Positions 1,735-36,621 of a stretch of DNA of 64,000 nt are shown here, piece after piece. This stretch comes from Selaginella tamariscina. Taxonomy: Eukaryota; Streptophyta; Lycopodiopsida; Selaginellales; Selaginellaceae. The stretch is taken from positions 973,217-1,037,216 of the forward strand of contig PUQB01000005.1 of assembly GCA_003024785.1 (NCBI GenBank), given 5' to 3'. The stretch's first letter is position 1, and every line of letters starts with the position of its first letter. The position numbers and the translations under genes were made by a program. The notes under the pieces are model-generated. The model saw only the letters and a program-made list of their open reading frames with translations, ran no database searches and was not told the origin of the DNA.

Positions 1735-2182
1735 TGGTGTCACAAAGGTGGCTTGCCAGGTGCCAACCCTAGAATCCCCTCTTCGAAAACCCCATGGAAT
1801 TTGGTAAAATAACCCGTATTAGGAACTCAAGCCCTAGGAACTCAAACCCCTAGCTGACTAAGTCCACGAACGAGACTCACCTTGAGAATCAGGATACACT
1901 AATTAGTTGAGCTTTAGGTGTTGTTCCTAGCTTGGCGTGGTTGAGGCAGCCGAAGCAAGGCCTCAACCACTAGTTTTGCGGAACGTGAACTCGGGCAATG
2001 CCTTTTGAGCTTGCGAGCAGGTTTTTGAACCAAGGAATATGACTAACTCCTTGGAAGTGACGTGCCCCTATCTCAAAGGCAAGATCCTACCAACGATAAG
2101 GATAGTCTAACCCTAGGGTGGGTTGTACCCCTGTCGTGTGGAAGTTTGGGCGGCACAACGGAGGGTTGCACCTTGACAACAC
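1735..2182. repeat. Older repeat, copy B, left part
   Basis: This is similar to copy A (285-940): a gtggcttg / gtgccaaccctagaat stretch and, at its right edge, gcacaacggagggttg then ccttgacaacac. The sequence stops where the LTR retrotransposon begins and resumes at 8,337, which shows that the retrotransposon inserted into this repeat. Confidence 0.6.
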
Positions 2183-2758: not shown

Positions 2759-2766
2759 GCACCTCC

Positions 2767-6416: not shown

Positions 6417-6629
6417 GTTGAAGGAATTGAACAGTTGAATGTGCCATGACTGCAGGAGAGAGGTTCAGTAGCATGGGTAACCGCGCTAGAAGCAATCAGA
6501 CGCCCATCGGCCACCTCTACAGGAACTCATGCTTCAACTTTATGAAGCATGCATTTGCACTAATGTATAACAGGGCAAACTCCTTGAGCTCTCAATTATT
6601 AAAATGAATGTGTACAGGAAACTTGAGTG

Positions 6630-7660: not shown

Positions 7661-7741
7661 AAAAAGGAGGAAACGAAGGAAAAGATTCAAGGAAAAAAAG
7701 TAGCTAGGAAACGGAGAGCTATGAAAGTAGTTCTATCAAAC

Positions 7742-8331
7742 TGTCAAGCCACGATCCAGGAACCAGGAAGAAAGTAGGATTCCAAGAACAAGAAGGCTTG
7801 ACTCAGGAATAGGACAGGGGGCAGGACAGGAACTAAGAACTCAGGAGCAAGATCAGGCGTAGGACAGGGATCCAGACAAGAACAGGATAGGAACAGGATA
7901 GGATCCGGGAGCAAGACAGGAAGGCAGGACAGGATCCAGAACAAGACAGGAGCAGGATAGGATCCAGGAGCAAGACAAGGAGAGAGCAGAAGCAAGGAAC
8001 AAGACAAGAACAAGACAAGAATTGATCGTAGTAAGACTGGTGTTGATAGTAACTGATTGTACAACAATTAGGTCGGAGCTTTTATGCTCACAACTCCAAG
8101 AGCTAATCTAGGCATGAGTGCTAAAAGTGGTTGCATGCATGTAAGTGGCTGCATGCATGCAGAGGCTAAGATGAGTCCACATGTCCCCCTCTAGGCATAT
8201 CCTGTGGTATATCCTGTAGGAATATCCTGCGACCGTATCCTATATCCGGAATCCTGTAGGAATATCTGTAGGAATATCTTGCAACCCATATCCTGTATCC
8301 GGAATCTTGCATCTTGTATCGGGTCGTGACA
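7742..8331 (-). repeat. LTR (5' LTR of the minus-strand retrotransposon)
   Basis: It is 590 bp, the partner of 2,183-2,758, and is followed by the AACAC duplication. The two LTRs differ at a number of sites, so the insertion is not very recent. Confidence 0.92.
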
Positions 8332-10673: not shown

Positions 10674-11812
10674 ATCTGCGGATTTGCAACAACATGAACC
10701 ATGGCATGCCCAAAATGATGGGAGTTGACCGAGTCTTTGATCAAGTTGAAGGAAATTAAACAGTTGAATGTGCCATGACTGCAGAGAGAGGTTCAGTAGC
10801 ATGACTTGGTGGGATCGTTTGGAGTTGGTAACTGCGCCAGAAGAAATCAGACACTCATCGGCCACATTGCATTTGCACCAGTGTCTAACAGGGCAAACTC
10901 CTTGAGCTCTCGATTATTAAGATGAATGTGTACAGGAAACTTGAGTGATGTAATGGTATGAGCAGCACCAATGGAGCCTGCACCTACGTCCAACTTCGCG
11001 GCTCCTTAGACGAAGTGGACATTGAAGTTTTCCGACTGAACTTCAGCTTCAACTTCACGCGTCTTGAACTTCTTGGCTTTAATAGGACATTCTGCCACCT
11101 TGTGTCTGCTCCACCACAATACAAGCATAGGTTCTCACTGCGGCGACGTTGCTTCTCAGCAGTGGAAAGGGGGCCACGCTTGGATTTCTCAACCTCCATA
11201 GGAACTACTCCAGAAGGTGGTGCAGGAACATGTACCACAGCTACAGAATTGGTTTGCAAGAATTGTTGACGGGATCTTTCCTGACGATGCTCGAACAAAC
11301 GGTTGTCGTAACGAACAGTTTGTTGCATGATCTCTACTAATGTTTGGGCATCCGCGTGACGGTAACGTAAGAAGAAGGTCCTTCACGTCATCCCTCAACC
11401 CAAAACGAAAGTGTTTGATCAATGCAGTCTCATCCCATGGAATGTTCGTGCAAAGTTGCTGAAATTCGGATGCATAGATGGATGGAAGCTGGTCGAGATC
11501 CTTGAGTGAGCTTTCGTAACTTCGTGCATGCAGAACGGTACTTATCAGGATCTCCAAAGTAGGCTTCAAAGGCAACCACGAAACCTTTAAAGTCTTCATC
11601 AATGGGTTGTCACGCTCTAGCAAGGGGCAACCCAAGCCCGTGGAGACCACTTAGTAAGGATGCCAAAAGGCTAACCTTTTGTGCATTAGTCGAGTAGGGC
11701 GTGGTTGCATGCGAATCAAGAGCCGGATCTGATTCAGGAAACCTTGGAACGATTGCCACTGAACAATATGATCCGCATGGCATCTTAAGGGCAATAGAGG
11801 TCGAGATCCAAA
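10674..11812 (-). pseudogene. Partial gag/protease copy of the same Ty3/gypsy family
   Basis: This matches 6,350-7,440 almost throughout (for example the phrases ccatggcatgcc and caaagttgctgaaattc). It keeps a clearer gag zinc-knuckle start (NLCLYCGGA) and the capsid phrase LPSIYASEFQQLCTNIP. No LTR is attached on either side, so it is a fragment. It is frameshifted. Confidence 0.85.
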
Positions 11813-15960: not shown

Positions 15961-16174
15961 ATCACATCTGGCCTGCGGAGTCCCCGACGACCAAAATTTT
16001 CTAATATTAAAGGAAAAATCTTTAAATATATGTTTGAAGACATAATATTCTTTAGAATATTCTATTTTGTAATTGACCTTTTAATAAATTATAACATTCA
16101 TGGACCAAAAATTAATAACATTATAAAGTAGAAGGTATGAAATTATATAATATTACACTCCTACACACATAAAC

Positions 16175-16258
<84 letters not shown>

Positions 16259-16283
16259 GTGTGTGTGTGTGTGTGTGTGTGTA
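16175..16283. repeat. (TA)n then (GT)n microsatellite
   Basis: About 80 bp of TA repeat is followed by about 26 bp of GT repeat, directly before palindrome array 1. The inner element has a similar tract at 28,283-28,350 beside array 2. Confidence 0.95.
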
Positions 16284-16285
16284 GC

Positions 16286-17041
16286 GGGGGATTAATCCCG
16301 CCGCTCTTTGGTTAGCCTCGCAAGCGGAGGGATTAATTCCGCTACCGAGGCCCTTTATGCAGGTCATGAGTGGCGGGATTAATCTCTCCGCCCTTCAAGC
16401 AAGCTATTTGGTTAGCCTCATAAGCAGCAGGATTAATCCTGCCACCCATGAGGCTAACCGAAGAGTGGCGGGATTAATCCCGCCAGATACCACACAGGGC
16501 ATAGGCGTGCGGCAGGATTAAGCCTACCGCCCATGGTCAGAGTGCTGGGCCTAGGAGGCGGGATTAATCCCGTCACCTACGCATGCCCTGTGCGAAATCC
16601 AACGGGATTTATCCCGCCGCCAATGGCCTGTTTAAAGGGCCTAGGCGGCGGGATTAATCCTGTTGGATTCTGCACAGGGCATGGGCGTGCGACAGGATTA
16701 ATCCCACCGACCCTTCTATGCCTGGTGGAGGGATGAATCCCGCCACCCTTTTTTTTTCCTCCATTAGTGAGTCAAACCAATCCCAAATGTCTGAGACATA
16801 GAAGGTTTACAACATACCAATGGAGAGATTAAGAAGGGTGGGATTCATTTCACCATCCCTTACATGGTGGGCGAGATTAATCCCACCTTTTGGAGCCACT
16901 GAAGGGGTGTGCCAAATAAATCATGCCCAGTTCTCTTGAACCGAGAAGGGTGGCAGATTAATCCTCACATCTATTAGGGTCCAGAAAGGTGGCGAGATTA
17001 ATCCCGCCACCATTTCAAGAGGTGGCGAGATAATCCCGCCC
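16286..17041. repeat. Palindrome array 1 (about 17 copies of GGCGGGATTAATCCCGCC)
   Basis: About seventeen copies, many imperfect, of an 18-bp self-complementary core occur roughly every 40-46 bp; the copy at about 16,465 is perfect. Spacers also come in inverted pairs (for example tttggttagcctc and gaggctaacc). At 16,757-16,828 one interval is a hairpin, cctccattagt...accaatggag, also found twice in array 2. The array ends about 355 bp before the start of the ParB/methylase-like gene. Confidence 0.92.
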
Positions 17042-17146
17042 ACCTTACATGTGAATATATATGTGTATTAGTATATATAAGTTGCATATTCATTTTATTT
17101 TTATCATCTTATCATAATATTTCGAGTAAAAGCCTGATAAAATTAT

Positions 17147-17225
17147 CCAAAGCTCACATTTGTGGTGGTTCTAAAACCAAATGTTATCTGTCTTTTGCAC
17201 TATCACAAACGTGAGCTTTGGACAG
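17147..17225. promoter_or_regulatory. Inverted repeat upstream of the ParB/methylase-like gene (outer copy)
   Basis: Arms ccaaagctcacatttgtg (17,147-17,164) and cacaaacgtgagctttgg (17,204-17,223) flank about 39 bp. The same structure is kept in the inner copy at 26,544-26,626. The role is unknown; its position between array and gene suggests a regulatory or transposition site. Confidence 0.6.
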
Positions 17226-17396
17226 TTAATCCGTCCACTTCTCTCTGAGACAAAGGAGGTGTATGTGAATTTATCAGTGTATTATTTTTGTATATTCGGG
17301 TTTATACAAGTGTGTGTGCGTTTTTATATGATTTGTATTCATAGTGTATTATTTTGCAGAAGGACGATTTGATCAAAAGGAGATTCAGTCATTAGT

Positions 17397-20300
17397 ATGG
17401 AGTCGTCGTCAAATTCTGGGTAAGAATTAAAATAAAATTTTATATTCGGATATGTGCTTGAAACTAATCATTTTTGTATTCAGATGTGGAATTGAGGTAC
17501 ATTGAAGACGAGAGCAGGAGAAGAGATGGGCAGGGGGATTCTGGAATCAACTTGGTATTTTCAAACTAAACGGGAAGCGCATTGGAACAACCATGGTTGT
17601 GTCAAACTAACCTCTGTCACATCGCATGGACAAGCAAAACAATGGAAAGTAGATGTGCTAGTCAAGCATCCGAAAGCATGCTAAACCCAGATTGAACGAT
17701 GCTCGACACATATGCCTTGTTCCATCCAATGTCACGTTCTCGGATCCAGAGGTCGCCAGTTACAACATTAATTCGGGTGGTCTTGTCGACTTGTGGATAA
17801 TGATGTTCACGTGTTCACTAATGATGTTGACTGGAGTTCTTCTTCAACTCAACGAAAGCCCATCTATGGAGGGGATCCAATTAGATCTACTTCGAAGATC
17901 TTCAGACTCATCGAGTAGGTGTATTTCAGCAGATTGCTTCACAATACAGAACATCACAAGTGGAGCAATCGTCCCTCTTCACATTGAAGAAGAACACAGT
18001 GACATCATAAGAGAGATTGAGAGGGTGGCTCGGTCTCAGGTTCTTTACAGATCACGTTCAATTTGCTTAGAAAACTTTCGGGAGCTGGAAGAGTGTGCCG
18101 AGAACATTAGAACAGCATCAATCGGGGATCACACATGTTGATTCGGATCGTAAAAAAAATCATCAGTTGTTTTGTCAGCTGCACCTGTGGCATCCCATGC
18201 TGCAATAAGCCACAAGGAAATGATGTTGGATGATAGGATTTATAGTGTAGGGTTAAGTATTGCAGCGTCAACCCAAACTTCAATTACAGGCCACTCAACC
18301 AGGAACGTGTAGCTGAGCTCATGGAGAAGATGAAGGACGACAATTCTTACACCGTTCCATATAATGTGTTTTGTGCCATACTACGAAAGAAACAAAGGCG
18401 CTGACAAAGTGTGGATCACAACACCAGAACAAATCATGAAGATTCAGACGGAGAATAGAAAATCAATCAAGTACTACATCATTAGTGGCCAGCACACAAT
18501 AACGGCAGCCAACGACTTCTCGATGAACACAACAAAGGAACGATGGCAACAGCATACCCGTGAGAAGCTGACGAAAAGATCCGTTTTTAAGCCGAATCTC
18601 ACAATCGAGCAGTACCATAAGTTATCGGCGGAATGGGACGCTGCCGACACCAACCACTACAACAGCAAAATATGGGAGAAGTTCAAACACACGCGAGCTG
18701 TGGGAATCTCTTCAGCGACCACAAAGAGCTACTGCAGGAATACACAATGTGCGATGTACCGGGTAAGTAAATTGTTGGGCGGGATTTATCTCGCCGGTAT
18801 ATTAATCTGTCTTTTTTTTCAGAGAGTTGAAGAAATTGTAGCAGTTGATTTTGCCCAGGTGGGCGGGAAGGAAACATCCTTTTTGATGATGTTGATTTCT
18901 TGTCCCGAGGATAGGATCTTTGCCAAATGGTTGGGGATTATGGAATCCTTTTCAAAAGGAACACTGAAGAAGAAGCAGACAAGTGAAGGGAGCCCTCAGA
19001 GAAGTCTGCAAAGAAACCCAGTAAGACGCCGAAGGCTAAGTCTGTTCAATCTACAAAGGATGTAGACAACGATTTCAAGCTCACATGGTTGAAGCCTTTA
19101 AATGGAACAACGATGGAGGAGATGGAAGTCTTGGCTGATTTGGTGATTGATGGCAAACTACAGATTAACAACAGCAGCCCCACCTCTCCTTTTCATCTCA
19201 AGGCAATGGAGTTGAAGACGGTCAGGCACTTCAAGGAGTGGTTGGGAATACACTGCCACAAACTGGGTTGGACCTCGGCTTCAACATACGAAGAGGTCAG
19301 CAAATATTTGCATGTGACAAACGATGATATGCTTGTCGAATGGGTGAATCAATCGGAAGATCTGGGCAAGAATCTATTGCACGCCAACGCCAAAAAGGAG
19401 AACATTGCGATGATTCTCTTATGGCAGTCCTTCAGCAGCGGAGAACCGAGTTGAACCTTATAAAGGAATGCTACGAATCACGACAAGCCCTACAGATGTT
19501 TGTTGTTGGATTCGGAGACTTTATGGGGTAACATCACTGCTTGTAGGAAACCGTTTCAATTGTTCGTGATGGATCGGCGGGTGTCAAAAAATCCTTCGAC
19601 AGACAGACACTAGAGGATTTGGTGGAGAAACTTAGCCGTGCAAGCATGTACAAAGAAGGTATTTATTATTGAATTCATGCTTGCACTCTTCACTGATATT
19701 ACGTTTTCAGGTATTTATTTCTTGATTCTTGCTCATGTCACCGATACTTTTGCCTTTGCCTTTGCCAAGAAGAATAAACATCGTTGGACAGGATTTTATA
19801 TGAATGATGCTGATCCGAAGTGCATTGATACGGTTGTTCACTTGGTTGTTAGGAATGCGCCAAACAATTTCAAACTTCCAAATGACTGGCCAGGCATCTG
19901 TTTGCACTCCAACGGCCTGAACCTCCATCATACACAGGACGTATTCGGCAATGTACGTTATCCAAACATTACAAGTCAAGCGGCACGGAGCATCGTCAAC
20001 TTGATCAGGGTCCTCACAGTGATGCATGGGTTTTTGACTACTGCACTAGGGGGTCCGTCTTGAAGGAGTGTTACCTTCGGGATACATTGTGTTTGCCGTT
20101 GAAAAGGATAAGACCATGGTTGAGGACCTGAACAAGTGGATAGAGAGGTTCTCAACTGACTACCCCAACAAACCCACAGGAGTATTTGGAAAGTTCCCTC
20201 CGAGAAGTGCGATAGCTCTGAAGACGAATCTGGTTCAATGTCGGAGTCTGAGGACAAACTTCAATCAGATATTAGACCAGAAGTTATCTCGAGGAGTACA

Positions 20301-20430
20301 GAACATTCACCACTCCATTACCCATGGAAACATCAACAGAGATAGAAGATCATGAACCATCTCACAAGCGGCTAGACCTTCTTCGCCTCACTCAGAAGGT
20401 AATAGCGAAGAAGAATTGTTAATGAGTTCT
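17397..20430 (+). pseudogene. ParB-like / DNA-methylase-like fusion gene, outer copy, decayed
   Basis: This is the same gene as the minus-strand copy at 23,466-26,399 and can be followed along its whole length. The reading frame is broken repeatedly (for example around 17,685, 18,140-18,360, 19,065, 19,455 and 20,040). The ParB-like phrase SGQHTITAA is retained at about 18,485-18,515. The SAM-site-like region is degraded (a shift around 20,010 turns it into unrelated residues). Introns are in the same places, including the one at about 18,763-18,823 that contains a palindrome core. Because the inner copy is more intact, this one is called a pseudogene. Confidence 0.75.
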
Positions 20431-20639
20431 TAGAGTGACGAATAGTTGTAAATGAGTGTAACATAAGGCATTTTTGTATATTTCGTTTATATTTGTACAG
20501 AAAATAAATTCTCAAGGATTAATGAAGCTTTTAGTTCAAACATGGGTCACCACATTAACAAGGTAAATAATATACCTTGATAATTTTAAGGTCAGCTAAT
20601 TATCATTTTGCAGATGTAATGAAACATTGAGAACATGGA

Positions 20640-21561
20640 TTTTCAGCATTGCATGAGGTAAGAGAGGGGTTTGGCGACAATTTCTTGTGCCACATGTCAG
20701 AATGACAGAGTTCATGCAGGAAATGGATAATAATGCAGCTCAAAACATCGTTACCATGGGGCCACTTCAGTTTTTTCATCATCATTTTTATTGGCTTCAG
20801 TTCCGAAATCAATTTCTTCAGCTGCAATATCTGAATCTTGTAAGGATGATGTACAATTAAATGATAAAGGGATAGGCAACGATATATGTCAAGATAAATG
20901 TGAAAGGGAGCAAACAAGTGATTTGCAAAGTATTCAAGAGGCAACGCTATCCCATGTTACTCATGGCCATATTGTGTTGTTGGATGTCAATGGTGTTCTG
21001 CTTCATCGACAAAGGCCCGAGGATAGGAAAAAAGAAATCAAACAAGGAGATTTCATTCCTTGTCATGCGATATGATATTATTTTTCGTCCAGGGTTGGAT
21101 TCTCTTTCAAAAGCTTAAGGAGATGGGTGCGCTTGTGGGGATTTGGTCATGCATGCAGATTACAACTTGACACCGCTGTTGAATTTGCTTAAGAAACATT
21201 GTAGTGTTGTAGAAGAGGTGATTTCGTAAAAATTGAATTTTTGACCAACAAGTATGTTATAAACCTCTTGAATTTCATAATATAAAAAGGAAAGCAAGCC
21301 ATACTTCTTCAAGAATGAAAGATTAATTGGCTTCATAGGGATATCAATCATTAAGGATAATGAAGAACGCACATATCTTAGTGGTAAATGACTCTCCTCA
21401 GAAGGCTATGCTTAACCAAAACATTGCTTGTATCCATCCAATCACTTTCAACCATATTCTGATACCAATACCATGGATGAGCTGGTGAACTACTTGGATA
21501 CGTGCCTTAGAAAGAAGAATCTCGACAACTTTTGTGAACAATATCCACTATATCAAACATT
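20640..21561 (+). pseudogene. FCP1/NIF-type HAD phosphatase-like gene, outer copy, interrupted
   Basis: It encodes the same protein as 21,850-22,934 (minus): VLLDVNGVLLHRQRP and IIFRPGLDSL are clear. There is a frame problem around 21,070 (a short stretch of the inner copy is missing) and in the segment near 21,225. The coding sequence ends abruptly at 21,561 after CATT, where the inner transposon is inserted. The missing C-terminal part lies at 36,039-36,330. Confidence 0.8.
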
Positions 21562-21588
21562 ATGCACGTTGTAACTAAAGTGGGCATG
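21562..21588. repeat. Left terminal inverted repeat of inner transposon
   Basis: It begins ATGCACGTTGTAACTAAA and continues gtgggcatg. The same end, with one or two changes, closes the outer element at 36,595-36,621. Confidence 0.88.
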
Positions 21589-21849
21589 ATACGTGAAAAT
21601 GGGAATATAAAATAAATTACTAATTAATACTTAAGTTTTAATTATTAATTAATCATTTAATTAATATGTAATTAAGCCTTAAATATTAATTAATTAATTA
21701 ATTAATCCTTCAATAACCTTACTTAGTAAGGAATATTCCTAAAATATCTTAGAATATTCATATTATTCTAAAAATAGTTTACAATAATGAAGAAATACTA
21801 TCAAACATAATTACAAATGAAATCATTTTCTTATCAACATATTAATTTT

Positions 21850-22934
21850 TTATAAATACTTTCTTTCTATCATACAAAGAAATCTTTTCATTTTGTCTAA
21901 ATCATCACTCTCCGGATTAATCAAATCATTTTGGTCAATATCTTGATGTTGTTGCCACCACTTAACACTCTCACGAATGCAATTGGGAGTTGCCATCCTT
22001 GTTAATACATAAAATGTGATAAGAGAAGGTCTGCATAAAGGCTCATCTAAAAACTGACGTTCCTTAAGAATAATATTATAAAGCGCCCGGTTGCTATCCT
22101 TCATTTTATAAAATTCAATATCACGAGAAAGAAAAGCTTCAGGAAATGTATGATACAGTGGATACTGCTCACAAAAATTTTCGAGATTCTTCTTTCTGAG
22201 GCACGTATCCAAGTAGTTCACTAGCTCATCCATGATATCGGTATCAGAATATGGATCGAAAGTGATTAGATAAATACAAGCAATGTTTTGGTTGAGCATA
22301 GCCTTCTGAGGAGAGTCGTCTACTACTAAGATATGTGCATTCTTCGTTATCCTTAAGCGACTGATCTCCCCATGAGTCCCAATTATTCTTTCATTCTTGA
22401 AGAAGTATGGCTTGCTTTCCTTTCTTATATTGTGAAATTCGAGAGGTTTATGACACATTCGCTGGTCAAAATCCAATCTTTACGAATCACCTCTTCTGCA
22501 ACACTACAATGTTTCTTAAGTAAACTCAATAGCGGTGTTAAGTTATGAATCTGCATGCATGACCAAATCCCCACAAGCGCACCCATCTCCTTAAGCTTTT
22601 GAAAGAGACGATCCAACCCTGGACGAAAAATAATATCATATCGAAATTTACCATGACAAGGAATGAAATCTCCTTGTTTGATTTCTGTTTTTCTATCCTG
22701 GGGCCTTTGTCGATGAAGCAGAACACCATTGACATCCAACAACACAATATGGCCATGAGTAACATGAGATAGCGTTGCCTCTTGAATACTTTGCAAATCA
22801 CTTGTTTGCTCCCTTTCACATTTATCCGTTGCCACTATTTCGTTGCCTATCCCTTCATCATTTAATTGTACATCATCCTTATAAGATTCAGATATTGCAT
22901 GCGCTGAAGAAATTGATTTCGGAACTGAAGCCAA
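21850..22934 (-). CDS. FCP1/NIF-type HAD phosphatase-like protein (transposon cargo)
   Basis: The product belongs to the FCP1/SCP-like HAD group. What is seen: a first motif LLDVNGVLL (about 22,740), R-x-G region IIFRPGLDRL, a second-motif-like GIWSCM, a DQRMC motif, and a last motif VVDDSPQKAMLN. Catalytic HAD phosphatases of this group normally have DxDx(T/V); here the second Asp is Asn (DVNG). Plant relatives with D-x-N are known, so this may be a family trait and not a break. The frame shifts by one base near 22,478, splitting the gene into two overlapping frames. No ATG precedes the conserved part in frame, so an upstream exon (towards 23,080) is likely. It ends at a stop at 21,850. The neighbour upstream is the ParB/methylase-like gene on the same strand. 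Confidence 0.72.
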
Positions 22935-23465
22935 TAAAAATGATGATGCAAAAACTGAAGTGGCCCCATGGTAACGATGTTTTGAGCTGCATTATTATCC
23001 ATTTCCTGCATGAACTCTGTCATTCTGACATGTGGCACAAGAAATTATCGCCAAACCCCTCTCTTACCTCATGGCAATGCTGAAATCCATGTTCTCAATT
23101 ATTTCATTACATCTGCAAAATGATAATTAGCTGACCTTAAAATTATCAAGGTATATTATTTACCTTGTTAATGTGTGACCCATGTTTGAACTAAAAGCTT
23201 CATTAATCCTTGAGAATTTATTTTCTGTACAAATATAAAAGAAATATACAAAAATGCCTTATGTTACACTCATTTACAACTATTCATCACTCTATCAATT
23301 CATTATCAATTCTTCTTCGCTATTACCTTCTGAATGAGGCGAAGAAGGTCTAAGCCGCTTGTGAGATGGTTCAAGATCTTCTGCATCTTCTATTGATGTT
23401 TCCATGGGTCCTGGAGTGTGCGAATGTTCTGTACTCCTCGAGATAACTTCCGGTCTAATATCTGA

Positions 23466-26399
23466 TTAATGTTCGTTCTCAGACTCCGAGATTGAACCAG
23501 ATTCACCTTCAGAGCTATCGCACTTATCTGGAGGGAACTTTCTCAAATACGCCTTTATGGATTCGTTGGGGTACTCAGTTGAGACCCAATCTATCCACTT
23601 GTTCAGGTCCTCAACCATGGTCTTATCCTTCTCAACGGCAAACACACATGTATGCCGAAGGTAACACTCCTTCAAGACGGACCCCCTAGTGCAGTAGTAA
23701 AAAACCCACGCATCACTGTGAGGACCCCTGATCAAGTTGACGATGCTCCGTGCCGCTTGACTTGTAATGTTTGGATAACGTACATTGCCGAATACGTCAC
23801 TCATACCTATCGGTGTATCGATGGAGGTTCAGGGCCGTTGGAGTGCAAACAGATGCCTGGCCAGTCATTTGGAAGCTTGAAATTGTTTGGCGCATTCCTA
23901 ACAACCAAGTGAACAACAGTATCAATGCACTTGGGATTAGCATCGTTCATATAAAATCCTGTCCAACGATGTCTATTCTTCTTGGCGAAGGCGAAGGCAA
24001 AAGTATCGGTGACATGAGCAAGAATCAAGAAATAAATACCTGAAAAAGTAGGTATCAGTGAAGAGCGCAAGCATGAATTCAATAATAAATACCTTCTATG
24101 TATATGCTTGCACGGCTAAGTTTCTCCACCAGATCCTCTAGTGCCCTATCTGTCGAAAGATTTTTTGACACCCGCCGATCCATCACGAACAATTGAAACG
24201 GTTTCCTACAAGCAGTGATGTTACCCCATAAAGTCTCCGAATCTAACAACAAACATCTGTAGGGCTTGTCGTGATTCGTAGCATCCTCCTTTATAAGGTT
24301 CAATTCGGTTCTCCGCTGCTGAAGGACTGCCATAAGAGAAGGCGTCATCCCAATGTTCTCCTTTTTGGCGTTGGCGTGCAATAGATTCTTGCCTAGATCT
24401 TCCGATTGGTTCACCCATTCGACAAGCATATCATCGTTCGTCACATGCAAATATTTGCTAACCTCTTCATATGTTGAAGTCGAGGTCCAACCCAGTTTGT
24501 GGCAGTGTATTCCCAACCACTCCTTGAAATGCCTGACCGTCTTCAACTCCATTGCCTTGAGATGAAAAGGAGAGGTTGGGCTGCTGTTATTGATTTGTAG
24601 TTTGCCATCGATCACCAAATCAGCCAAGACTTCCATCTCCTCCATCGTTGTTCCATTTAAAGGCTTCAACCATGTGAGCTTGAAATCGTTGTCTACATCC
24701 TTTGTAGATTGAACAGACTTAGCCTTCGGCGTCTTACTGGGTTTCTTTGCAGACTTTTCTGAGGGCTCCCCTTCACTTGTCTGCTTCTTCTTCAGTGTTC
24801 CTTTTGAAAAGGATTCCATAATCCCCAACCATTTGGCAAAGATCCTATCTTCGGGGCAAGAAATCAACATCATCAGAAATGATGTTTCCTTCCCGCCCAC
24901 CTGGGCAAAATCAACTGCTGCAATTTCTTCAACTCTCTGAGGAAAAAGACAGATTAATATACCGGCGAGATAAATCCCGCCCAAACAATTTGCTTACCCG
25001 GTATTCCGCAGATTGTGTATTCCCTGCGGTAGCTCTTTGTGGTCGCTGAAGAGATTCCCACACGGCTCGCGTGTGTTTAAACTTCTCCCATATTTTGCTG
25101 TTGTAGTGGTTGGTGTCGGCAGCGTCCCATTCCGCCGATAACTTATGGTACTGCTCGATTGTGAGATTCGGCTTAGCTAAAAACGCCGATCTTTTTGTCA
25201 GCTTCTCACGGGTATGCTCGGAAAGTTTTGTTGCCATCGTTCCTTTGTTGTGTTCTTCGAGAAGTCGTTGGGCTGCCGTTATTGTGTGCTGGCCACTAAT
25301 GATGTAGTACTTGATAGATCTTTTATTCTCCGTCTGAATCTTCATGAGTTGTTCTGGTGTTGTGATCCAGACTTTGTCAGCACCCTTCCTTCTTTCATAG
25401 TATGGACACAAAACAGCATTATGTGGAACGGTATAAGAATTGTCGTCCTTCATCTTCTCCATGAGCTCAGCTACACGTTCCTGGTTGAGTGGCCTGTAAT
25501 TGAAGTTTGGGTTGACGCTGCAATATTTAACCCTACAAGGATAAATCTTATCATCCAACATCATTTCCTTGTGACTTATTGCAGCATGAGATGCCACAGG
25601 TGCAGCTGACAAAACGATTGATGATTTTCTTTTGCGATCCGAATCAACATGTGTGATCCCCGACTGCAGCTGTTCTAGTGTTCTCGGCACACTGCTCCAG
25701 CTCCCGAAGCTTCCTAAGCAAATTGAACGTGATCTGTAGAGAACCTGAGACCGAGCCACCTTCTCAATCTCCCTTATGATGTCGCTGTGTTCTTCTTCAA
25801 TGTCAAGAGGGAAGATTGCTCCACTTGCTGATTTTCTGTATTGTGAAACAATATCTCCTGACAATACACCTACTCGATGAGTCTGAAGATCTTCGAAGTA
25901 GACATCCAGATGGATCCCCTCCATAGATGGGCTTTCGTTGAGTTGAAGAAGAACTCCAAGGTCAACATCATTAGTGAACACGTGAACGTCATTATCCACA
26001 AGTCGACAAAACCACCCGAGATTAATGTTGTAACTGACGACCTCTGGATCCGAGAACGTGACATTGGATGGAACAAGGCATATCTGTCGAGCATCGTCCA
26101 ATCTGGGTTCGCAGCCTGCTTTCGGGTGCTTGACTAGCGAATCAACTTTCCATTGTTTTGCTTGTCCATGAGATGTGACAGAGGTTAATTTGACAGCAGC
26201 CATGGTTGCTCCAATGCGCTTCCCATTTATCTTAAAATATGGCCAAGTTGATTCCAGAATCCCCCTGCCCATCTCTTCTCCTGCTCTTGTCTTTAATGTC
26301 ACCTCAATTCCACATCTGAATACAAAAATGATTAGTTCAAGTATCCGAGTATAACAGATTTTATTTTAATTCTTACCCAGAATTTGACGACGACTCCAT
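23466..26399 (-). CDS. ParB/sulfiredoxin-fold plus DNA-methylase-like fusion protein
   Basis: A large gene of roughly 930 residues in several exons. I choose ATG 26,399 (MESSSNSG), joined by an intron (about 26,316-26,375) to the long frame beginning before 26,302; the frame is also open upstream of that ATG. The middle of the protein (25,550-25,255) reads SVNPNFNYRPLNQERVAEL and then KYYIISGQHTITAAQRLL, the pattern of the ParB N-terminal nuclease-like domain (NP.N.R ... G.H...A). A lysine-rich linker follows. The end (23,800-23,600) reads AARSIVNLI, AWVFYYCTRGSVLKE and CVFAVEKD, which resembles the C-terminal SAM-binding part of N4/N6 DNA methylases (LD.F.GSGS....GIE.D), but the glycine motif is degenerate. 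Introns are short; the one at about 24,946-25,005 holds a palindrome core. One 1-nt shift near 23,805 and an early stop at 23,466 (CAA to TAA compared with the outer copy; the frame would otherwise run to 23,295) are visible. Function is inferred from motifs only. Confidence 0.55.
24963..24981. repeat. Palindrome core inside an intron
   Basis: ggcgagataaatcccgcc differs at two positions from the array core GGCGGGATTAATCCCGCC and lies in an intron of the ParB/methylase-like gene. The outer copy has the same sequence at 18,778-18,795. Confidence 0.75.
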
Positions 26400-26543
26400 A
26401 CTAATGACTCGATCTCCTTGTTTGATCAAATCGTCCTTCTGCAAAATAATACACTATAAATATAAATTATATAAAAACGCACACACACTTGTATAAACCC
26501 GAATATACAAAAATAATACACAGAGAGAAGTAGACGTAATTAA

Positions 26544-26626
26544 CTGTCCGAAGCTCACATTTGTGTTAGTGCAAAAGAAAGATAACATTTCGTTTTAGAA
26601 CCACCACAAATGTGAGCTCTGGACAG
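26544..26626. promoter_or_regulatory. Inverted repeat upstream of the ParB/methylase-like gene (inner copy)
   Basis: Arms of about 22 bp (26,544-26,565 and 26,605-26,626; gaagctcacatttgtg / cacaaatgtgagctctgg) flank a 39-bp loop. It lies about 150 bp upstream of the gene start and is conserved with 17,147-17,225. Confidence 0.6.
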
Positions 26627-26732
26627 TTTTACATAGATTCCTAGCTTTTACTCGAAATATATGAAAGATGATAAAAGTAAATAAAATGAGATATGCAACT
26701 TATATATACTAATACACATATATATTCACATG

Positions 26733-28275
26733 GAAGGATTAATCTCGCCACCCCTTCAATGCCTCCTGAAAGAGTGGGCGGGATTAATCTCGCCACCTTT
26801 CTGGAGGCCTTGAACGGGAGTGCGGAATTAATCTTGCCACCCTTCTCGGTCTCAGAGAGAACTGGGCAGGATTTATTTCTCACACCCCTTCAGTGACTCC
26901 AGAAAGGAGGCGGGATTAATCTCGCCCACCATGTAAGGGATGGTTAAATGAATCTCGCCACCCTTCCCAGTCCCCTCCATTGGTATGTTGTAAACCTTCT
27001 ACGTCTTAGACAGAAACGTTTGGGATTGGTCCAACTCACCAATGGAGGAAAAAGGGAAGGGTGGCGAGATTCATTTCTCCAACAGGCATTGAAGACTCGG
27101 CGGGATTAATCCCGCCGCCCAGGGCCTTCACTCGGTCCCTATGCGGCGGGATTAATCCCGCCGGACGCCAATTCCTGCGCGGAATCGGGCGGGATTAATC
27201 CCGCCGCCTAGGCACTTCAGGCAGGCCAATGGCGGCGGGATTAATCCCGCCCGATTCGCAGGGAATTGGCGTCCGGCGGGATTAATCCCGCCTCCCAGGC
27301 CCTTCACTCGGGCCTTAGTCGGCGGGATTAATCCCGCCGAACGCCAATGCCCTGTGCGAAATCTTGCGGGATTAATCCCGCCGCCTAGGCCCTTCAGGCA
27401 GGCCAATGGCGGCGGGATAAATCCCGCCCGATTCCGCGCAGGGCATGCGTACGCGGCGGGATTAATCCCGCCCACCATGTAAGGGATGGTGAAATTAATC
27501 CCACCACCCTTCTCGGTTCCCTCCATTGGTATTTTGTAAACCTTCTCCGTCTCAGACAGAGTTAGTCGGGATTGATTCAACATACCAATGGGGTAATGAA
27601 GGTTCGGAGATTAATCTCGCCACCGGGTAATGAAGGTTCGGAGGCTAATCCCGCCGCCCTCTCGTAAATCATGCGCTCACACATATATATTGGCTGCGGC
27701 ATTTTTGAACAGGGATGGGTGGGGGCGGGATTAATCCCGCCGCCCAGGGAATTCACGCAGGAATGAACGGCGGGATTAATCCCGCCGCCCTCCGCGAAGG
27801 GCATGAGCGTGGGGCCGGATAAATCCCGCCGTTCATGTCCTGCGTGAATTCCCTGGGCGGCGGGATTAATCCCGCCGCTCTACGACAAACCGGAGCGGCG
27901 GGATTAATCCTGCCGCCCATTCCCTGTAAATGCCCTGCGCGGAATCCGGCGGGATTAATCCCGCCCATTAGAACCTTCACACAGGCCATTGCCGGCGAGA
28001 TAAATCCCGCCGCATTCCGCGCAGGGCATGGATGAGCGGCGGGATTAATCCCGCCGCCGAGGCCCCTCACGCAGGCTATGGGCGGCGGGATTAATCCCGC
28101 CGCTCTTCGGTTTGTCGTAGAGCGGCGGGATTAATCCCGCCGCCCATAGCCTGCGTGAAGGGCCTCGGCGGCGGGATTAATCCCGCCGCTCACCCATGCC
28201 TGAAGGGCCGGCGGATTAATCCCGCCGCCATGGCCCCAACTATAGCGGCGGGATTAATCCCGCCGCTCGAGGGGC
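26733..28275. repeat. Palindrome array 2 (over 30 copies of GGCGGGATTAATCCCGCC)
   Basis: The most regular array. From 27,098 the cores are near-perfect, with start-to-start steps of about 41-46 bp (measured GGG positions 27,102, 27,148, 27,191, 27,237, 27,278, 27,324, 27,368, 27,414, 27,458). Spacers are related in inverted pairs (gacgccaattcctg and cagggaattggcgtc). At 28,033-28,192 two units form a perfect-looking 74-bp-arm palindrome. The left part (26,733-27,080) is more diverged, as in array 1. Stretches with the hairpin cctccattggta...taccaatgg occur at 26,975-27,055 and 27,521-27,590. It lies between the divergent genes of the element. Confidence 0.95.
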
Positions 28276-28282
28276 TTAGCGA

Positions 28283-28820
28283 GATAAAAACACACACATA
28301 TATATATGTGTGTGTGTATATATATATGTATGTATGTATGTATGTATAGGAGTGTACGTGTGTGTGCAAGAGATAGATAAATAAATAAACTTATACAGTA
28401 CTGGTACACCTAATATATGTGTGTACATAGGTATATATATGTGTGTATATGTATATCGTGTGTATGCGTGTGAGCGAAACAAATAAAATCATACAGATAA
28501 ACAAACACACACACACACATATATATACACAGGAGTGTGCGTGTGTGTGCAAAGATAAAACTAATAAATAAATAAAATTATACAGATAAACACACACATA
28601 TATATGTGTGTATATAGATATATAATCTATAGAATATATAAGCATATATATAAACTAGTGTTGTATATGTATGTATAATATGTATATGGTTATATTATAT
28701 ATGTGTGTATGTGGTGTGTGTGGGTGTGTGTGTGTGTGTGTGTGTGTTGTAAAGCAGTGCGCGTGTGTGTGGGAGAGATAGATCAATAAAAAAAAATTTA
28801 CAGATACTGGTACACATATA

Positions 28821-28873
<53 letters not shown>

Positions 28874-29172
28874 GCAGTGTGCGTGTGTGTGGGAGAGATA
28901 GATCAATAAAAAAAAATTTACAGATACTGGTACACATAATATATGTATGTATATATGTATATAGGTATATATATATATGTGTATATGTATATCGTGTGTA
29001 TGCGTGTGTGAGCGAAACAAATAAAATCATACAGATAAACAAACACACACCCACACACACATATACATACACAGGAGTGTGCGTGTGTGTGCGAGAGATA
29101 AAACTAATAAATAAATTTATACGCACACTCCTATACATATATACATACATACACACACACACACACACAGAT
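28283..29172. repeat. CA/TG and TA microsatellite block with internal duplications
   Basis: Mixed (TG)n, (TA)n and (TATG)n tracts. A segment of about 200 bp at 28,398-28,600 is repeated at 28,921-29,125 (shared phrase gtgagcgaaacaaataaaat), and a 70-bp segment at 28,748-28,817 is repeated at 28,868-28,937. The open frames here are simple-sequence artefacts. Confidence 0.9.
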
Positions 29173-31391
29173 CTCACCTGTGTGCACAGCCGCCCGCCGA
29201 TTTCACAACCGCCGCCTCTTGAAACCCTAAGAATATACCTAAACCCTAAAGGAATTAAAATATATATTAACCCTAATAGAATATTCCTTTTGAGAATATA
29301 CTTAAACCCTAAAAAGAATAAAATAGATTCGCCCTAAACGAATATTCTTCATTATATTATTAGCGCGTGCGTGTGCGTGGGTGTATCACATACACCTCAA
29401 AAATATAAATCATGCAGGATTTAACATGTGTGTGTCCATGAGAGTGTTAAAGTTTCATGTGTATCAATACATACATACACATTGCATATATTAATACACA
29501 TAATATATACATACACACGTGTATACACACAGACATACACACATATTAGTACATAATATTAGAGAGACCGAGTACATATTATAGATCATGCATGGTGTAT
29601 AGTTTGAGAGAAGAGAGACAGTACATATTAACATGGATCATGCATGGTGTGTATGTATGAGAGAAGACAGAAAGTACACATATATACATACAGAGTACAC
29701 ATATATACATGCACACGTGTATACACACAGACATACATACATATTACATGAGTAAATTCATTGTGTTACATATTAGGGTTTAGGGTTTAGGGTTTAGGGT
29801 TTGCTCCCAACAAGCTTAATATAAATATTACACATGTAAATTCAATGTGTTACATACAGTCACACAGATTGGTACATATATCATACATGCGTTGAACATG
29901 ATGTTTTCAATAAAGAAGCAACCTATTTCTTCAGTTTGGTTTAGGGTTGTGCATGTGTGTGCATATGTGTTTTTGTAAGTTCTTGTAATGCGTGTGTAAA
30001 TTTATGATTGTGTTATATATGTGTGCAAAACAAACATCGAATAATTAAGAAAATAATATTAATAAACACACTAGGAACATATTTTAAATTATACATAATA
30101 TATATGATTTTATCTAATATATAGCCATATATAGTTTTAATAATATATATTAATTTAATATTGATAAAAAGGTTAACATTGAAATATTCTTGAAATAATA
30201 AGAAATTAATTGAGAAAATCCCATTAATATATACAAATGTAAATTAAGTACTCAAATAATTAACTAAATTAATTATCATAATCATGTTTAATATTGGAAT
30301 ATTCTTGGAATAATAAGAAAATAATAAAGAATATCCCATTAATATAAAGAAGATTAATTACTCAAGTATTAAGGAAATGATATTAATATATATATTATTA
30401 AAACTATATATGACTATATATTAGATAAAATGATGTATTATTATGTATAATTTAAAATATGTTCATAGTGTGTATTAATTTAATATTGATAATAAGGTTT
30501 AACACATGAATATTCTTGAAATAATAACAAATTAATTGAGAAAATCCCATTAATATATACAAATGTAGAATAATTACTGCAATAATTAAGAACAAGACTA
30601 ATTTAATTATGATAATCAGGTTTAATATTAGAATATTCTTCAAATATTAATAAAATATTAAAGAATATCCCATTGATACTAGGAAATGAAAACTAAATAC
30701 TCGAGTAATTAAGAAAATAATAATAATAAACAGACTATGAATATATTTTAAATGATACATAATAATATATCAATTTATTTATTGTATAAGTATATATTTA
30801 TATATATATATATAATATAAATATACTTGAATACTAAGAATGTAGAATATAGTCTAAAATTTCGTAATATTAAACAGCTTGAATCACTTGAATAACATTA
30901 AATGCAATTTTAAAATACTCATTGGAACTGGAGAGTATATATGTCAGAGTGTCGGATATTTGTGTCAACTCATCTTAAATTTTATTTTCTGTTCTTTTTT
31001 TAAAAATTTGAATTTCTGACATATGTATGTCGGTCTGACATGTAAATTTGAAAATGCATTTAATTTCCCACTCAAATTCAGATCTGGTTCTTTCTCCGGC
31101 AAGGTTTCTTCATTTCTGTATTTTTCACTCTTTAGATCTTCTTTTTTCTTCATAGTGATCATCTAGGGGCGAGATTAAATTGGGTGCTATTCTTTATAAG
31201 AAAGCACGGCGCCTTCAGTGCTGTTTACAAGTAAGTATTATAAACAAATTTAAAAATACTTATAAAGATTCACTCTCTTACATTCTCTCTTAAAATTACA
31301 ATTTAAGGGTTAGGAATGCATTAGGATTATAATATATTCCGTTAGGGATTTATCCCGTTTAAATATCCTTTAACTTAATATTCTAGGTTAA
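29173..31391. other. AT-rich interior of the transposon, no gene seen
   Basis: No supported coding sequence. There are several accctaaa repeats at 29,220-29,340, dispersed CA-rich tracts, and four diverged tandem copies of a unit with gaatattctt ... cccattaatat (about 30,183, 30,296, 30,508, 30,632). Confidence 0.6.
29772..29801. repeat. Interstitial plant-type telomere repeat (TTTAGGG)4
   Basis: Four consecutive ttaggg-t units on the plus strand, the Arabidopsis-type telomere sequence, internal to the transposon. It is too short to be a chromosome end. Confidence 0.9.
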
Positions 31392-32268
31392 CCGGGCCGG
31401 CGGATTAATCCGGCCATTTCTTTTTGGCCTCTTCGAAGAGGTGGCGGGATTAATCCCGCCACCATCTCCCGGCAATGCTTCTCCGCCACTGAAAAAGAGT
31501 GGCGGATTAATCCCGTCGATAACCTTCTCAACTGATGAAAGAGTTACCAGAATTTATTAGAAAGAGTTGTCGGCGGGATTAATCCCGCAACCATTTTAGA
31601 AGGCAGGGAAGGGGTGGCGGATTAATCTCGCCACCACTTCCCTGTTTTAAAGATTTGGGGACAGGATTTATCCCGAGATCTCTTTGAAATCATAGTTTTG
31701 GAGAGAGTTATGTGCGGGTTAATCCCGCCACCCATTCCCCGTCGTAAGAATTGTGGGCGGGATTAATCCCGCCTTGGACTCCCCCCGAGGAGGAAGAGGC
31801 GGCGGGATTAATCCCGCCGGCTCTTCTTTGTCGGAGGGAGTCCAAGGCGGGATTAATCCCGCCGACTCTCTCCGAAGGGGTTGAGTCGGCGGCGGGATTA
31901 ATCCCGCCGGACTCCCTTCCTCGTCGGAGAGAGTCGACGGGATTAATCCCGCCGGACTCCCCCGAGGAGGAAGAGGCGGCGGGATTAATCCGCCGACTCT
32001 CTCCGAAGGGGTTGAGTCGGCGGCGGGATTAATCCCGCTGGACTCCCTTCCTCGTCGGAGAGAGTCGGCGGGATTAATCCCGCTTGGACTCCCTCCGACA
32101 AGGAAGAGCCGGCGGGATTAATCCCACCGCCTCTTCCTCCTCGGGGGGAGTCCGGCGGGATTAATCCCGCCGACTCTCTCCGAAGGGGTTGAGTCGGCGG
32201 CGGGATTAATCCCGCCGACCGTTCCTCGTCGGAAGGATTCGTGGGCGGGATTAATCCCGCCCATCAGT
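31392..32268. repeat. Palindrome array 3 (about 20 copies, different spacers)
   Basis: The same core GGCGGGATTAATCCCGCC as arrays 1 and 2, spaced about 40-50 bp. The spacers belong to another family: gactccc...gaggaggaagagg, gactctctccgaaggggttgagtc and cttcctcgtcggagagagtc, which are themselves partly self-complementary and alternate in inverted orientation. It ends about 150 bp before the transposase-like gene. Confidence 0.94.
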
Positions 32269-32415
32269 TGTATTAATCAAACATGAGATATTATCTCTAA
32301 ACATAATTATGTATTATTGCATATGCATATTATTAAATAACCGTAATTCAGATTTCTTAGAAATATTGCATAAACAGATATCATAAATAATACAATTATT
32401 TATGTGCAGGACAAT

Positions 32416-35400
32416 ATGTTTAATACTGGAGATAAAGTATGTCTTCTTCGGAACAACGAGATAGTTGGCACTGGAACTTGTGGAAGTTCGAGATAATAAT
32501 GCATCATGTCACAATATTGCCCAAGGATCTTGTGTGTACGTATGGGTGAACACCATTTACAAGTATGTTGAGGTTCTGGGAATGGAATTTGAGGAGGGTT
32601 CTCCTGTATTGTGGAATTTGGATGAAGTCAAGGCTGACACAGAATATGCAGAGTCACAAACAAATAGTAGCACGAGTTTACCAGATGATGGCTTGCCTGC
32701 TGTAATGGATGAGGTGATTCTCTTTCTTCATGAATTGAAGTCGGAAGAGGCATCATCACAGCTATAAATCCAATGGAAGCAGTGTCAGAAGAGAAACTAG
32801 GGTCCGACTTCGTGGGTGTAGTTGTGACAGAGGTTTCACCTAATGGCACATTGTATCCTGGATCCCTCGTGAGGTGGCGAACATCTGAATTAAGACGGCA
32901 AGATGGTTCAACATATTCTGGGTTGGATTTCAATAATAACAACCCGGAAGAACAACTCATATTTGAAGAGGTTCCTTGCATTGGTCCTATTGTAAGAAAA
33001 AGGCGATTCATGGGTTGTAGATCTTCCCCTACAAGTTTCAGCAAGAGGGTAAAGATGGATCCTACATCTTCCGAAAGTGTTACGAGCATTTCCACGATTG
33101 ACTGTTGCAAGAGAAGTGTTGTCAGATGGCAGACCGGAATGAAATTACCCAATGTAGACATGTCTTTCGTATGCTCACCCAAAAGCAAAGGCATGAGTTT
33201 GTATATGCTGCACTAACTGGGTGTATTGATGGAATGGCCTCGGACACAGGTTATCAGAGTACATCCATGGTATTTAATAAGGTGGCCATCTGCTTCAAAG
33301 CTTGGTACAGTATATACGGGATCCCAAAGACCACGTTCTACCGTCGGAGGGATGAGTGGCTAGATGGAGCGCGAACCTCAGTTCATGGGAACACTGGCTT
33401 GGTCAAAACCCGCTCTCACATCATGGCAGCCATAGAGATACTCAAGGCTTTTGTGGAAGCAAATGCAGACAGGATGCCTCACAAATGCCGAACCACAAAT
33501 GCAGGGGTCAGGGAAAATCTCAAGGTTTTACCTTCAATCTACACTCAATTGAAACTGTGTGAACATGTGAACAAGTGCCTCAGTTTGATGGGGCTCCAAG
33601 CAATCTACACTGGTACCTTCAACAACATATGGAATACTCATTTTAAGGATGTGGAGATTGCAAAACACTCTAGCTTTTCTAAGTGTGACACTTGTACATC
33701 ATTGAAGGCTGCAGAGGCTTGTGCAAAAACCTTGGTGGAGATCACTACCATTCAAAGGAAGATGGAGGCCCACATGATTGCACAACAAACTTGCCGGTCT
33801 CAGTACTATGCACACCGCATGCTTTCTGTGTCACGCCCATCAGAGTACCTGTGCTTGATCCATGACAAGATGGATCATTCAAAGACTAGCATTCCAAAGC
33901 TCTTTGCAACACCAAAGTGCCTTGGAAATGTCATGAAACTTCCGATTTCATTGACAGGTGTGCTAACACATGGACATGGTTGTGAGTCATATGGACACTT
34001 TTCACTTCCACATTGGTCTAGCGACTCCAATTTCACTATTGGGTCGTTAGCCATGTGTTTCAGAAACCTTGAAGCCCACTCACAGACAAGTCCTATCAGT
34101 GATCTCAAAGTGAAGAAACAACACCTTCAACCTTTACATAATGCTCTCATGAACACATCTGCACTTGAGGCTACTTAGGAATATGAGAGGCATTGTCAGC
34201 AACCTGCACAAAAAACAGATGGCCTGTTGAGAGTTCAGGTTCAGTGGAGGGATCTAGCTCAAATAGTGTACATGTGTCCTCAACATCAAATAAGCTTCCT
34301 CGTCATTTGCTTTTACAGATGGATAATTGTGCAGCGAGAACAAAAATAGGTAAATCATTTTACTTAAGGGTTTCTCAAGCTCATACTTACTTTTATTTTC
34401 TAGATATGTGCTAGCATACTTGTCAATGCTTGTTGCCAAAGGTGTGTTTGAAACAATCACGCTCAGTTTCCTTATGGTTGGTCACACTCATGAAGATATT
34501 GATGCGTTCTTCAGCAAGGTCTTCAACTCTACAAAAAGGACAAGTGCACTTACCTTACCGCATATGATGAATCTTTTTGAAAATTGCATCTCCAAAAAAA
34601 GTTGCGCTTTGCTTGTGACTGAGGTGCCAGACTTCAAAAAATTTCTCAAGGAGTATATAAAAGAAGGGAGTGATTCTTTAGTTGGTCACCTTGTGCAGCT
34701 ACAATTCTTTTTCTCCATACGAGATGGTATACCTATTATGCAGTACAAGTTACGGCCATCAGAGCAGGAGTGGTTACCAAAAGAGGGCTTAATGCTCTTC
34801 AAAAGTGGAGAGGATGGAAAGCCACTTCTCCCAGAAGGACAACCAGACCCTATTCCATTGAGTGCCCAGCTCAAGGAACAAGAGGTTATTATTGATGGCA
34901 TCAAAAAATATGTGGCATGGGTTCAAAAATCGATGCCAAAGAATTCTGATAAGGCAACTGGTTACTCAGAACTATATAAGCATGTGGTCAACTATTGGGA
35001 GACTGTTGTTCAAGAGTTGGAAGGGCCTACTGTCACAAGTACAGAATTGCAACACCCTTTTTGGCCTAAAACAAGGTGGCGAGAGGAGATTGAAATGACA
35101 TCACTGAGCACAGACGACATAGAAGCCAGTAGTGATGTGGAGTGCAAACCCCACATTTTGTTGGACAAAGGAACCAAAAACCTAAAGCATACTTTGATTG
35201 CTGCAAGGATCTTCAAAAACTAATGATGGTTCTCATTACTCCAGATGCGTCATATAATCAGCCTATTTGGATGGGTCAAATTATCGACACACCTGAAGTA
35301 ATCACAAAAAATAGTATTGTTAAGGTTGCATGGTTCAAACCACAAAAAAGGCGACACGAGAAGGAGAGCGAAAGATATAATGGATGCCTAGAGAAAACAT

Positions 35401-35531
35401 GGTCTCCCAATCAAAAAGACCCAGCATGTTTTATAAATGTTAAATCCATTCGATATGGGTGGATGTCAAGAAGCGTTAATAAAGTCACGATTAACAAAAC
35501 TGCAAGGGAATGTATGTTTTCTGAAGCTTAA
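32416..35531 (+). CDS. DUF7869-type transposase-like protein (RNase H-like candidate), broken by indels
   Basis: The start is taken as ATG 32,416 (MFNTGDKVCLLRNNEIVG), followed by a shift into the frame at 32,465-32,767, then 32,773-33,110 and 33,105-34,178. An intron is likely at 34,350-34,403, followed by the 34,405-35,223 frame and a last shifted frame to 35,531. Features seen: a cysteine-rich CDTCTSLKAAEAC, then HDKMDHSKT (about 33,860), QMDNCAA (about 34,318) and SFLMVGHTHEDIDAFFS (about 34,470). These three acidic blocks are the hallmark of the family annotated DUF7869 in plants and animals, likely an RNase H-fold transposase. At least three 1-nt indels or stops interrupt the frame, so this copy may be inactive or carry sequence errors. 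It is the only transposase candidate in the element. Confidence 0.7.
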
Positions 35532-36038
35532 AGCAATTACAAAATTATAAAATATCATATATTTAATATTCATAATTATTATAAACTCTTTAATAATAGT
35601 ACCAAATTGTATACTTAACTATATAAATTTAAAAAATGATATGGAAGATTGACTATATTATTATAGGATTTATATATATATTATTACTACTACAAATTTT
35701 TAATTAATAATGTTATATTTAAATATTAATATTTTAATAACAACATCAATATTTATATAATGTACCTCTTATGCTCTTCCTTAATTGTTATATTAGGCAA
35801 TATATTATATAATTTAATACATTCTACTTTTATAATGTTATTAATTTTTGTTCAATGAATGCTATAATTTATTAAAGGGTAGAATACAAAATAGAATATT
35901 CTAAAGAATATTCTCTTTTCAAACATATATTCTAAAGAATATTCCTTTAATATTAGAAAATGCTAATTAAATAGCTAAAATTGCTAATTATTAGGAAATG
36001 GGACTATAGCCATGCCCAATTTTAGTTACAACTTGCAT
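35532..36038. other. AT-rich subterminal region and right terminal repeat
   Basis: No gene. From about 35,800 the sequence matches the outer element's left end (15,995-16,140, inverted), and from 35,895 the solo fragment at 940-1,082. Repeated gaatattc motifs precede the end. The terminal inverted repeat is 36,011-36,038, ending ttttagttacaacttgcat. Confidence 0.75.
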
Positions 36039-36621
36039 CATTTTTTGACGCTTTTCTTTCTTGTGATTTTGAGTTTTATAAAATGAAGGATAGCAACCGG
36101 GCACTTTACAATATTATTTTTAAGGAACGTCATTTTTTAAATGAGCCTTTATGCAGACCTGGTCTTATCACATCTTATGTATTAATAAGGATGGTAACTT
36201 CTAACTACATTTGTAAGAGTGTTAGATGGTGGTAACAATATCAAGATATTAACTAAAATGATTCAATTAATTCGGAGAGTGATGATTTAGACAAAATGAT
36301 GAGATTTCTCTATATGGTTAGGGAGAAAGTATTTATAAATAAATTAAAATGTTGATAAAAAAATGATTTCATTTGTAATTATGTTTGATAATATTTTTTA
36401 ATTATTGTAAACTATTTTTAGAACGAAGAATAATATGAATATTCTAAGATATTTTAGAAATATTCCTTACTAAGGATTAATTTATTAATTAATTAATATT
36501 TAAGGCTTAATTACATATTAATTAAATAATTAATTAATAATTAAACTTTAAGTATTAATTAGTAATTTATTTTATATTCCCATTTTCATGTATCATGCCC
36601 ATTTTAATTACAACGTGCATC
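36039..36621 (+). mobile_element. Outer transposon, right part (phosphatase 3' end and terminal repeat)
   Basis: 36,039-36,330 encodes the missing C-terminal part of the outer phosphatase gene (MKDSNRALYNIIFKERHFL; VRWW), beginning at the second CATT. It has an internal stop and substitutions. 36,330-36,621 matches, inverted, 21,562-21,850 of the inner copy and ends with the terminal repeat ttttaattacaacgtgcat at 36,621. Confidence 0.85.

Follow-up and report, generated by a model that had tools for sequence, protein, structure and literature searches.

Among the described DNA transposons, those closest to the element analyzed here belong to the Sola superfamily, whose members carry a DDD transposase, 4-bp target duplications and inverted ends, exceed 15 kb in some cases, and occur in a moss (PMC10741241; PMC9033089). 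One giant relative, Sola1-1_Ec32 from the brown alga Ectocarpus, is 21.5 kb long and encodes a 1104-amino-acid (aa) ParB/methyltransferase protein on the strand opposite to the transposase; its authors suggested that proteins of this type attach to the transposon that encodes them and modify it epigenetically, and noted that giant families in general often have a broken transposase gene, which implies that they move in trans (PMC12477816). ParB-methyltransferase proteins have also been described in transposons of green and red algae (Iyer 2011 and Petroll 2025, as cited in PMC12477816). The present analysis concerns a 64,000-nucleotide stretch of the land plant Selaginella tamariscina (assembly GCA_003024785.1, contig PUQB01000005.1, positions 973,217 to 1,037,216; hereafter the window, to which coordinates refer unless otherwise indicated), in which an element of 14,477 bp lies at 21562-36038, with its A end to the left and its B end to the right. 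This element is probably a giant DNA transposon of the cut-and-paste type, with the Sola superfamily (Sola1-like) as its most likely affiliation, operating by the mechanism proposed below.

Insertion, ends and copies of the element

The 14,477-bp copy (the inner copy) sits inverted within an older relative of the same transposon (the outer copy). The left junction (21561/21562) reads CAAACATT before and ATGCACGTTGTAACTAAA after the boundary, and the right junction (36038/36039) reads TTTAGTTACAACTTGCAT before and CATTTTTTGACG after it, with the target site duplication CATT present at 21558-21561 on the left and at 36039-36042 on the right. The empty site, reconstructed by joining the flanks minus one CATT, aligned without gaps to the gene that is uninterrupted in the inner copy. 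Comparison of the window with itself by BLAST paired outer positions 16467-21561 with inner positions 27382-22145 (inverted, 89.6%), and outer positions 36039-36620 with inner positions 22148-21562 (87.6%). The element is bounded by inverted terminal repeats of about 27 bp (A end, 21562-21588, plus strand; B end, 36012-36038, minus strand), whose termini are ATGCA. The original prediction, which had described a nested insertion with CATT junctions, an uninterrupted gene in the inner copy and this orientation, was borne out by the junction reading and by the gapless empty-site alignment.

A search for further copies bounded by the terminal repeats, suggested along with that prediction, was run on 220 kb around the window (assembly of 300.7 Mb in 1,391 contigs), and coordinates of the copies are given on the joined stretch of 284 kb. 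Three more two-ended copies were found, at 83433-98014 (duplication AGTG), 226291-241067 (CTTC) and 251295-262723 (GAAT). Exact 4-bp duplications were present in all four two-ended copies, which span 11.4-14.8 kb; the remaining copies in the flank have one end or none, so that their duplication is unreadable. The predicted ends and duplication length hold in the inner copy and in the three others, and copies whose ends fail to coincide with these repeats, which would have spoken against the prediction, did not occur among the four. The notion that the junctions are an assembly artefact is extremely improbable, because the three other copies share these ends and differ in their 4-bp duplications.

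Among the four two-ended copies, the outermost 200 bp at the A end were 99-100% identical. At the genome level, at least 300 matches to the Pfam family of the transposase (DUF7869, see below) were detected; among the 150 matches listed, 89 had an identical score of 95.0 bits over an identical span, and one of these 89 loci, located on another contig (L030), matched the inner element with 97.6% identity along 6.5 kb. The near-identity of the A ends, the uniformity of the matches and the similarity of L030 suggest that the family was recently amplified. Of the 215 kb of non-N flank, 38% resembles the element, in a stretch that was not randomly chosen.

Genes carried by the element

The transposase gene (32411-35531, plus strand, with an intron at 34350-34403) was assigned to DUF7869; its start is approximate, as it was set by the length of the apparently intact gene found in L030, which encodes 1,021 aa. 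In the inner copy, frame breaks together with an in-frame stop disrupt the gene. Foldseek alone gave weak results for this protein (best E 0.042, to Tn5 transposase), and an RNase H-like/integrase core was found by a second structure aligner. Two Asp residues plus D677 and D679 were conserved in an alignment of 112 rows. No relative was found when this alignment was scanned against viral contigs.

A second gene (21850-22991, minus strand, in two overlapping frames) encodes a NIF/FCP1-like phosphatase (Pfam PF03031, NIF, E 1e-6), and its frame in the inner copy is broken, judged beside an open frame in another copy. The usual phosphatase motif is DxDx(T/V), and this gene carries DVNGV at the corresponding position. 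The ratio of nonsynonymous to synonymous substitution rates (dN/dS) between the inner and outer copies was 0.48 for this gene (359 codons, with 13 gapped ones and 4 stops omitted).

The third gene (23466-26399, minus strand) is an orphan that was read by eye as ParB/methyltransferase-like. It consists of exons at 26399-26377, 26315-24998, 24936-24093 and from 24039 onward, with a last frame at 23828-23466 (the junction between the last two pieces being unsure); the introns are short and the main exons open. Comparison of the inner and outer copies gave a dN of 0.027 and a dS of 0.130 (765 codons; 34 gapped codons omitted), and the resulting ratio of 0.21 makes it probable that selection acted on the gene over much of its past. 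By exon, the ratio was 0.31 for the second and 0.09 for the third. In comparisons of a third copy with more decayed ones, dN/dS ranged from 0.22 to 0.67 for the exons of the ParB-like gene, from 0.34 to 0.93 for the transposase (excluding one pair without amino-acid change), and from 0.51 to 0.90 for the phosphatase-like exon. Many values in this set lie at 0.5-0.9, which weighs against selection; they were probably inflated by decayed, frame-broken pieces, and selection is read from the inner/outer comparison and not from the third-copy set. Very close copies differed by 0-1 changes per 286 codons in the third exon of the ParB-like gene.

The ParB reading was based on the motif ISGQHTITAA (GQHT-type), and the methyltransferase reading only on a degenerate-looking, glycine-bearing tail. 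Several results weigh against this label: searches of Pfam, PHROG, NCBIfam and PDB gave no supporting ParB or methyltransferase match, yielding only weak matches to other families (best Pfam value 0.012, for a single member among five; PDB, 0.28); no clear DPPY-type motif was seen in the protein by eye; and the single-sequence fold of the frame was useless (predicted local distance difference test, pLDDT, 33.5). Database searches and scans of viral contigs with this gene found no relative. From the gene set originally proposed, the transposase matches DUF7869 and the phosphatase PF03031, and the ParB/methylase label, made by eye, found no backing in any search.

Palindrome arrays

The element carries repeated copies of a 20-bp palindrome, CGGCGGGATTAATCCCGCCG, spaced about 45 bp apart. 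Counting sites with at most 4 mismatches, array 1 (26776-28265), 5' of the ParB-like gene, comprises 24 sites plus a weaker one at 26731, and array 2 (31442-32262), 5' of the transposase gene, comprises 14 sites plus weaker ones at 31397 and 31499. A single palindrome (24963-24982) lies in the intron of the ParB-like gene at 24997-24937; a coding reading of it was rejected, since it falls within the intron. The three groups of sites were present in all four two-ended copies (1/24/14, 1/24/13, 1/21/20 and 1/15/3 for intron, array 1 and array 2, respectively), and so was the small intron enclosing the single palindrome.

Between arrays 1 and 2 of the inner copy, the palindrome was 92% alike (a figure biased upward, as sites were picked by their likeness to the consensus), compared with 26-30% for the 12 flanking bases, a figure free of that bias. 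The spacing among neighbors less than 60 bp apart averaged 44.0 (standard deviation 3.2) and 44.7 (standard deviation 0.7) bp. The palindrome and its spacing have thus been conserved, and the spacer has not.

Across the 284 kb, 222 of 231 sites were located within, or at most about 100 bp from, element-like sequence (a partly circular count, given that arrays themselves count as element), and eight of nine transposase regions had sites within 2.5 kb on their 5' side; none was found within that distance of the ninth (79569-82023). The scan of the window detected no site outside the two element copies.

Proposed mechanism and role of the palindromes

In the mechanism proposed, the DDD/E transposase would act at the inverted ends of about 27 bp, and insertion into a target cut with a 4-bp stagger would produce the duplication, itself seen in four copies. 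Intact copies may have supplied transposase in trans to those without a working one, including both copies in the window. Judging by its layout, the opposite-strand accessory gene would correspond to the ParB-methyltransferase proteins known from algal transposons. The palindromes standing about 45 bp apart before both genes could be docking sites for a protein of the element: as first choice, the ParB-like protein would bind them, marking or regulating the element, with the transposase as the next best candidate binder. Both genes may be marked or controlled through the arrays.

It is tentatively proposed that the palindromes constitute a parS-like address for the element's own ParB-methyltransferase-like protein, a self-label placed at both promoters and in the intron, and that such arrays are general in DUF7869 transposons. 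If true, an epigenetic or partition-like self-mark would exist inside a land-plant nucleus, with the palindrome changing from family to family.

Three foreign loci were considered in this regard. L001, L002 and L003 are contigs from draft genomes deposited under bacterial names (Synechococcales, Bacteroidetes) and encode DUF7869 transposases; the named relatives of these proteins are plants and animals, and the contigs look like eukaryotic contamination. Palindromes of other sequences were found beside the transposase gene in L001 (five copies) and L003 (four copies), and no repeated palindrome was found in L002. When L001 was shuffled, one of 20 shuffles reached two palindrome copies. As a shared trait, palindromes beside foreign DUF7869 genes are suggestive only. 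In L003, an 89-bp tandem repeat lies downstream of the DUF7869 gene, near the contig end (4985-5146); the spacing of about 45 bp seen in this locus proved to come from this repeat, whose unit holds two palindromes.

The same loci count against binding of the palindromes by the ParB-like protein. No ParB-like match was found in the stretches of L001-L003 covered (best E 0.023, overlapping the transposase), and the palindromes of L001 and L003, placed as they are beside the transposase gene, fit transposase binding better; moreover, among 49 overlapping element-free control windows, 15 contained a palindrome in at least two copies and three contained one in at least three. A serious possibility, if short of an even chance, is that the transposase itself binds the arrays, as regulatory or synaptic sites, and that the ParB-like gene is unrelated cargo. 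Besides L001 and L003, it agrees with the location of array 2 directly 5' of the transposase gene; yet the larger array and the intron site stand at the ParB-like gene, some 8-11 kb from the B end, L002 lacks a repeated palindrome, and those three control windows reach three copies as well.

Binding by a host transcription factor, with the arrays acting as promoters or enhancers of the element genes, is unlikely: both arrays stand 5' of genes, and the half-sites end in CCCGCC, resembling an E2F-type site, but the 20-bp palindrome exceeds one such site in length, and the scanned sites of the window are confined to the two element copies.

Outer copy and surroundings of the element

To the left of the insertion, the outer copy occupies 15996-21561 (plus strand), where it lacks a transposase region and has a truncated B end, the homology setting in at 15996, about 78 bp in from the B terminus; to the right it occupies 36039-36620 (plus strand), with its own A end at 36620 (flank CTTG). 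Its palindromes lie at 16284-16745, 16869, 16990 and 18777. A lone B end of another copy was found at 911-1082 (minus strand), with no further homology detected to the left of it. Short palindromes of the type AGAATATTCT adjoin the terminal repeat in the B end of the inner copy (35873-36038), and similar ones were observed in L030 and in the lone B end at 1082. The AT-rich middle of the inner element contains four 7-base units (29773-29802) that match TTTAGGG, the plant telomere repeat.

A likely long terminal repeat (LTR) retrotransposon was detected at 2181-8331, with direct repeats at 2181-2758 and 7740-8331 (88.7%) and, between them, a minus-strand reverse-transcriptase frame of RNase H type; a part of this interior is found again at 10673-11764 (85%). 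To the right of the element (41844-63597), genes for a PRONE exchange factor (a plant-specific family by its Pfam description), a linker histone, NMD3 and a glutathione S-transferase were identified, a setting indicative of a land plant.

Comparison with known systems

The Ginger elements were rejected as relatives: their ends read TGTNR, and the duplications of Ginger1 are CCGG or CCGT/ACGG (PMC2836005), in contrast to the ATGCA ends and other duplications found here; furthermore, the transposase of Ginger1 and Ginger2 is Gypsy-integrase-like, whereas no integrase family was matched here in Pfam.

In duplication length, ends and size, the element agrees with the Sola superfamily. For Sola, inverted repeats span 11-1124 bp and lengths 2-9 kb, with some above 15 kb, and the copies analyzed here have ends of about 27 bp, lengths of 11.4-14.8 kb and a 4-bp duplication in every two-ended case. 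One point weighs against the assignment. Position 676, adjoining the conserved D677 and D679, held E in 82 of the 112 alignment rows and D in another 29 and was hence acidic in 111, so that a DDD triad, the Sola type, is not proven and the transposase is better described, from its alignment, as DDD/E. The element is Sola1-like by its features, membership being unproven. A separate superfamily for the DUF7869 elements is somewhat unlikely: the Pfam family has no assigned function, its name was not found in the literature searched, and the third catalytic residue is ambiguous (E/D at 676), but the 4-bp duplication, the size and the unusual layout of the accessory gene, the last shared with Sola1-1_Ec32, speak against it.

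Compared with Sola elements in general, the 4-bp duplications, inverted ends and large size are shared, and the transposase is DDD/E here and DDD there; the portion of PMC10741241 drawn on mentions neither a three-gene load nor a palindrome array, both of which are present here. The closest likeness is with Sola1-1_Ec32, also a giant DNA transposon with an accessory gene opposite to the transposase (here, the ParB-like gene on the minus and the transposase on the plus strand), and the element is called Sola1-like by its features because of this common layout, the ParB/methyltransferase domains being recognized here by eye only. Sola1-1_Ec32 differs in its length and its brown-algal host; a phosphatase-like gene is not mentioned in the consulted part of PMC12477816, and "palindrom" does not occur in its main text, in contrast to the arrays described here. 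The likeness to the ParB-methyltransferase proteins known from transposons of green and red algae lies in the idea of an accessory protein.

The original prediction had also held that no plant transposon with this gene set is known to have been described. Among the records listed from the literature searched, which excluded most subscription journals and Repbase, none described a comparable land-plant element; the gene plan has a brown-algal parallel in Sola1-1_Ec32, published in 2025 (PMC12477816), and is not new in kind. As far as searched, the new features are a land-plant form of the plan that includes a phosphatase-like gene, and palindrome arrays that precede the transposase gene as well as the ParB-like one. 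The transposon plan is thereby extended from algae to a land plant in which the family is abundant, and the family supplies a candidate binding site that the consulted text of PMC12477816 does not mention, with dozens of regular copies at matched places in four elements. These candidate sites, and a mobile unit delimited by its ends and duplications, make the proposal of the Ectocarpus authors directly testable.

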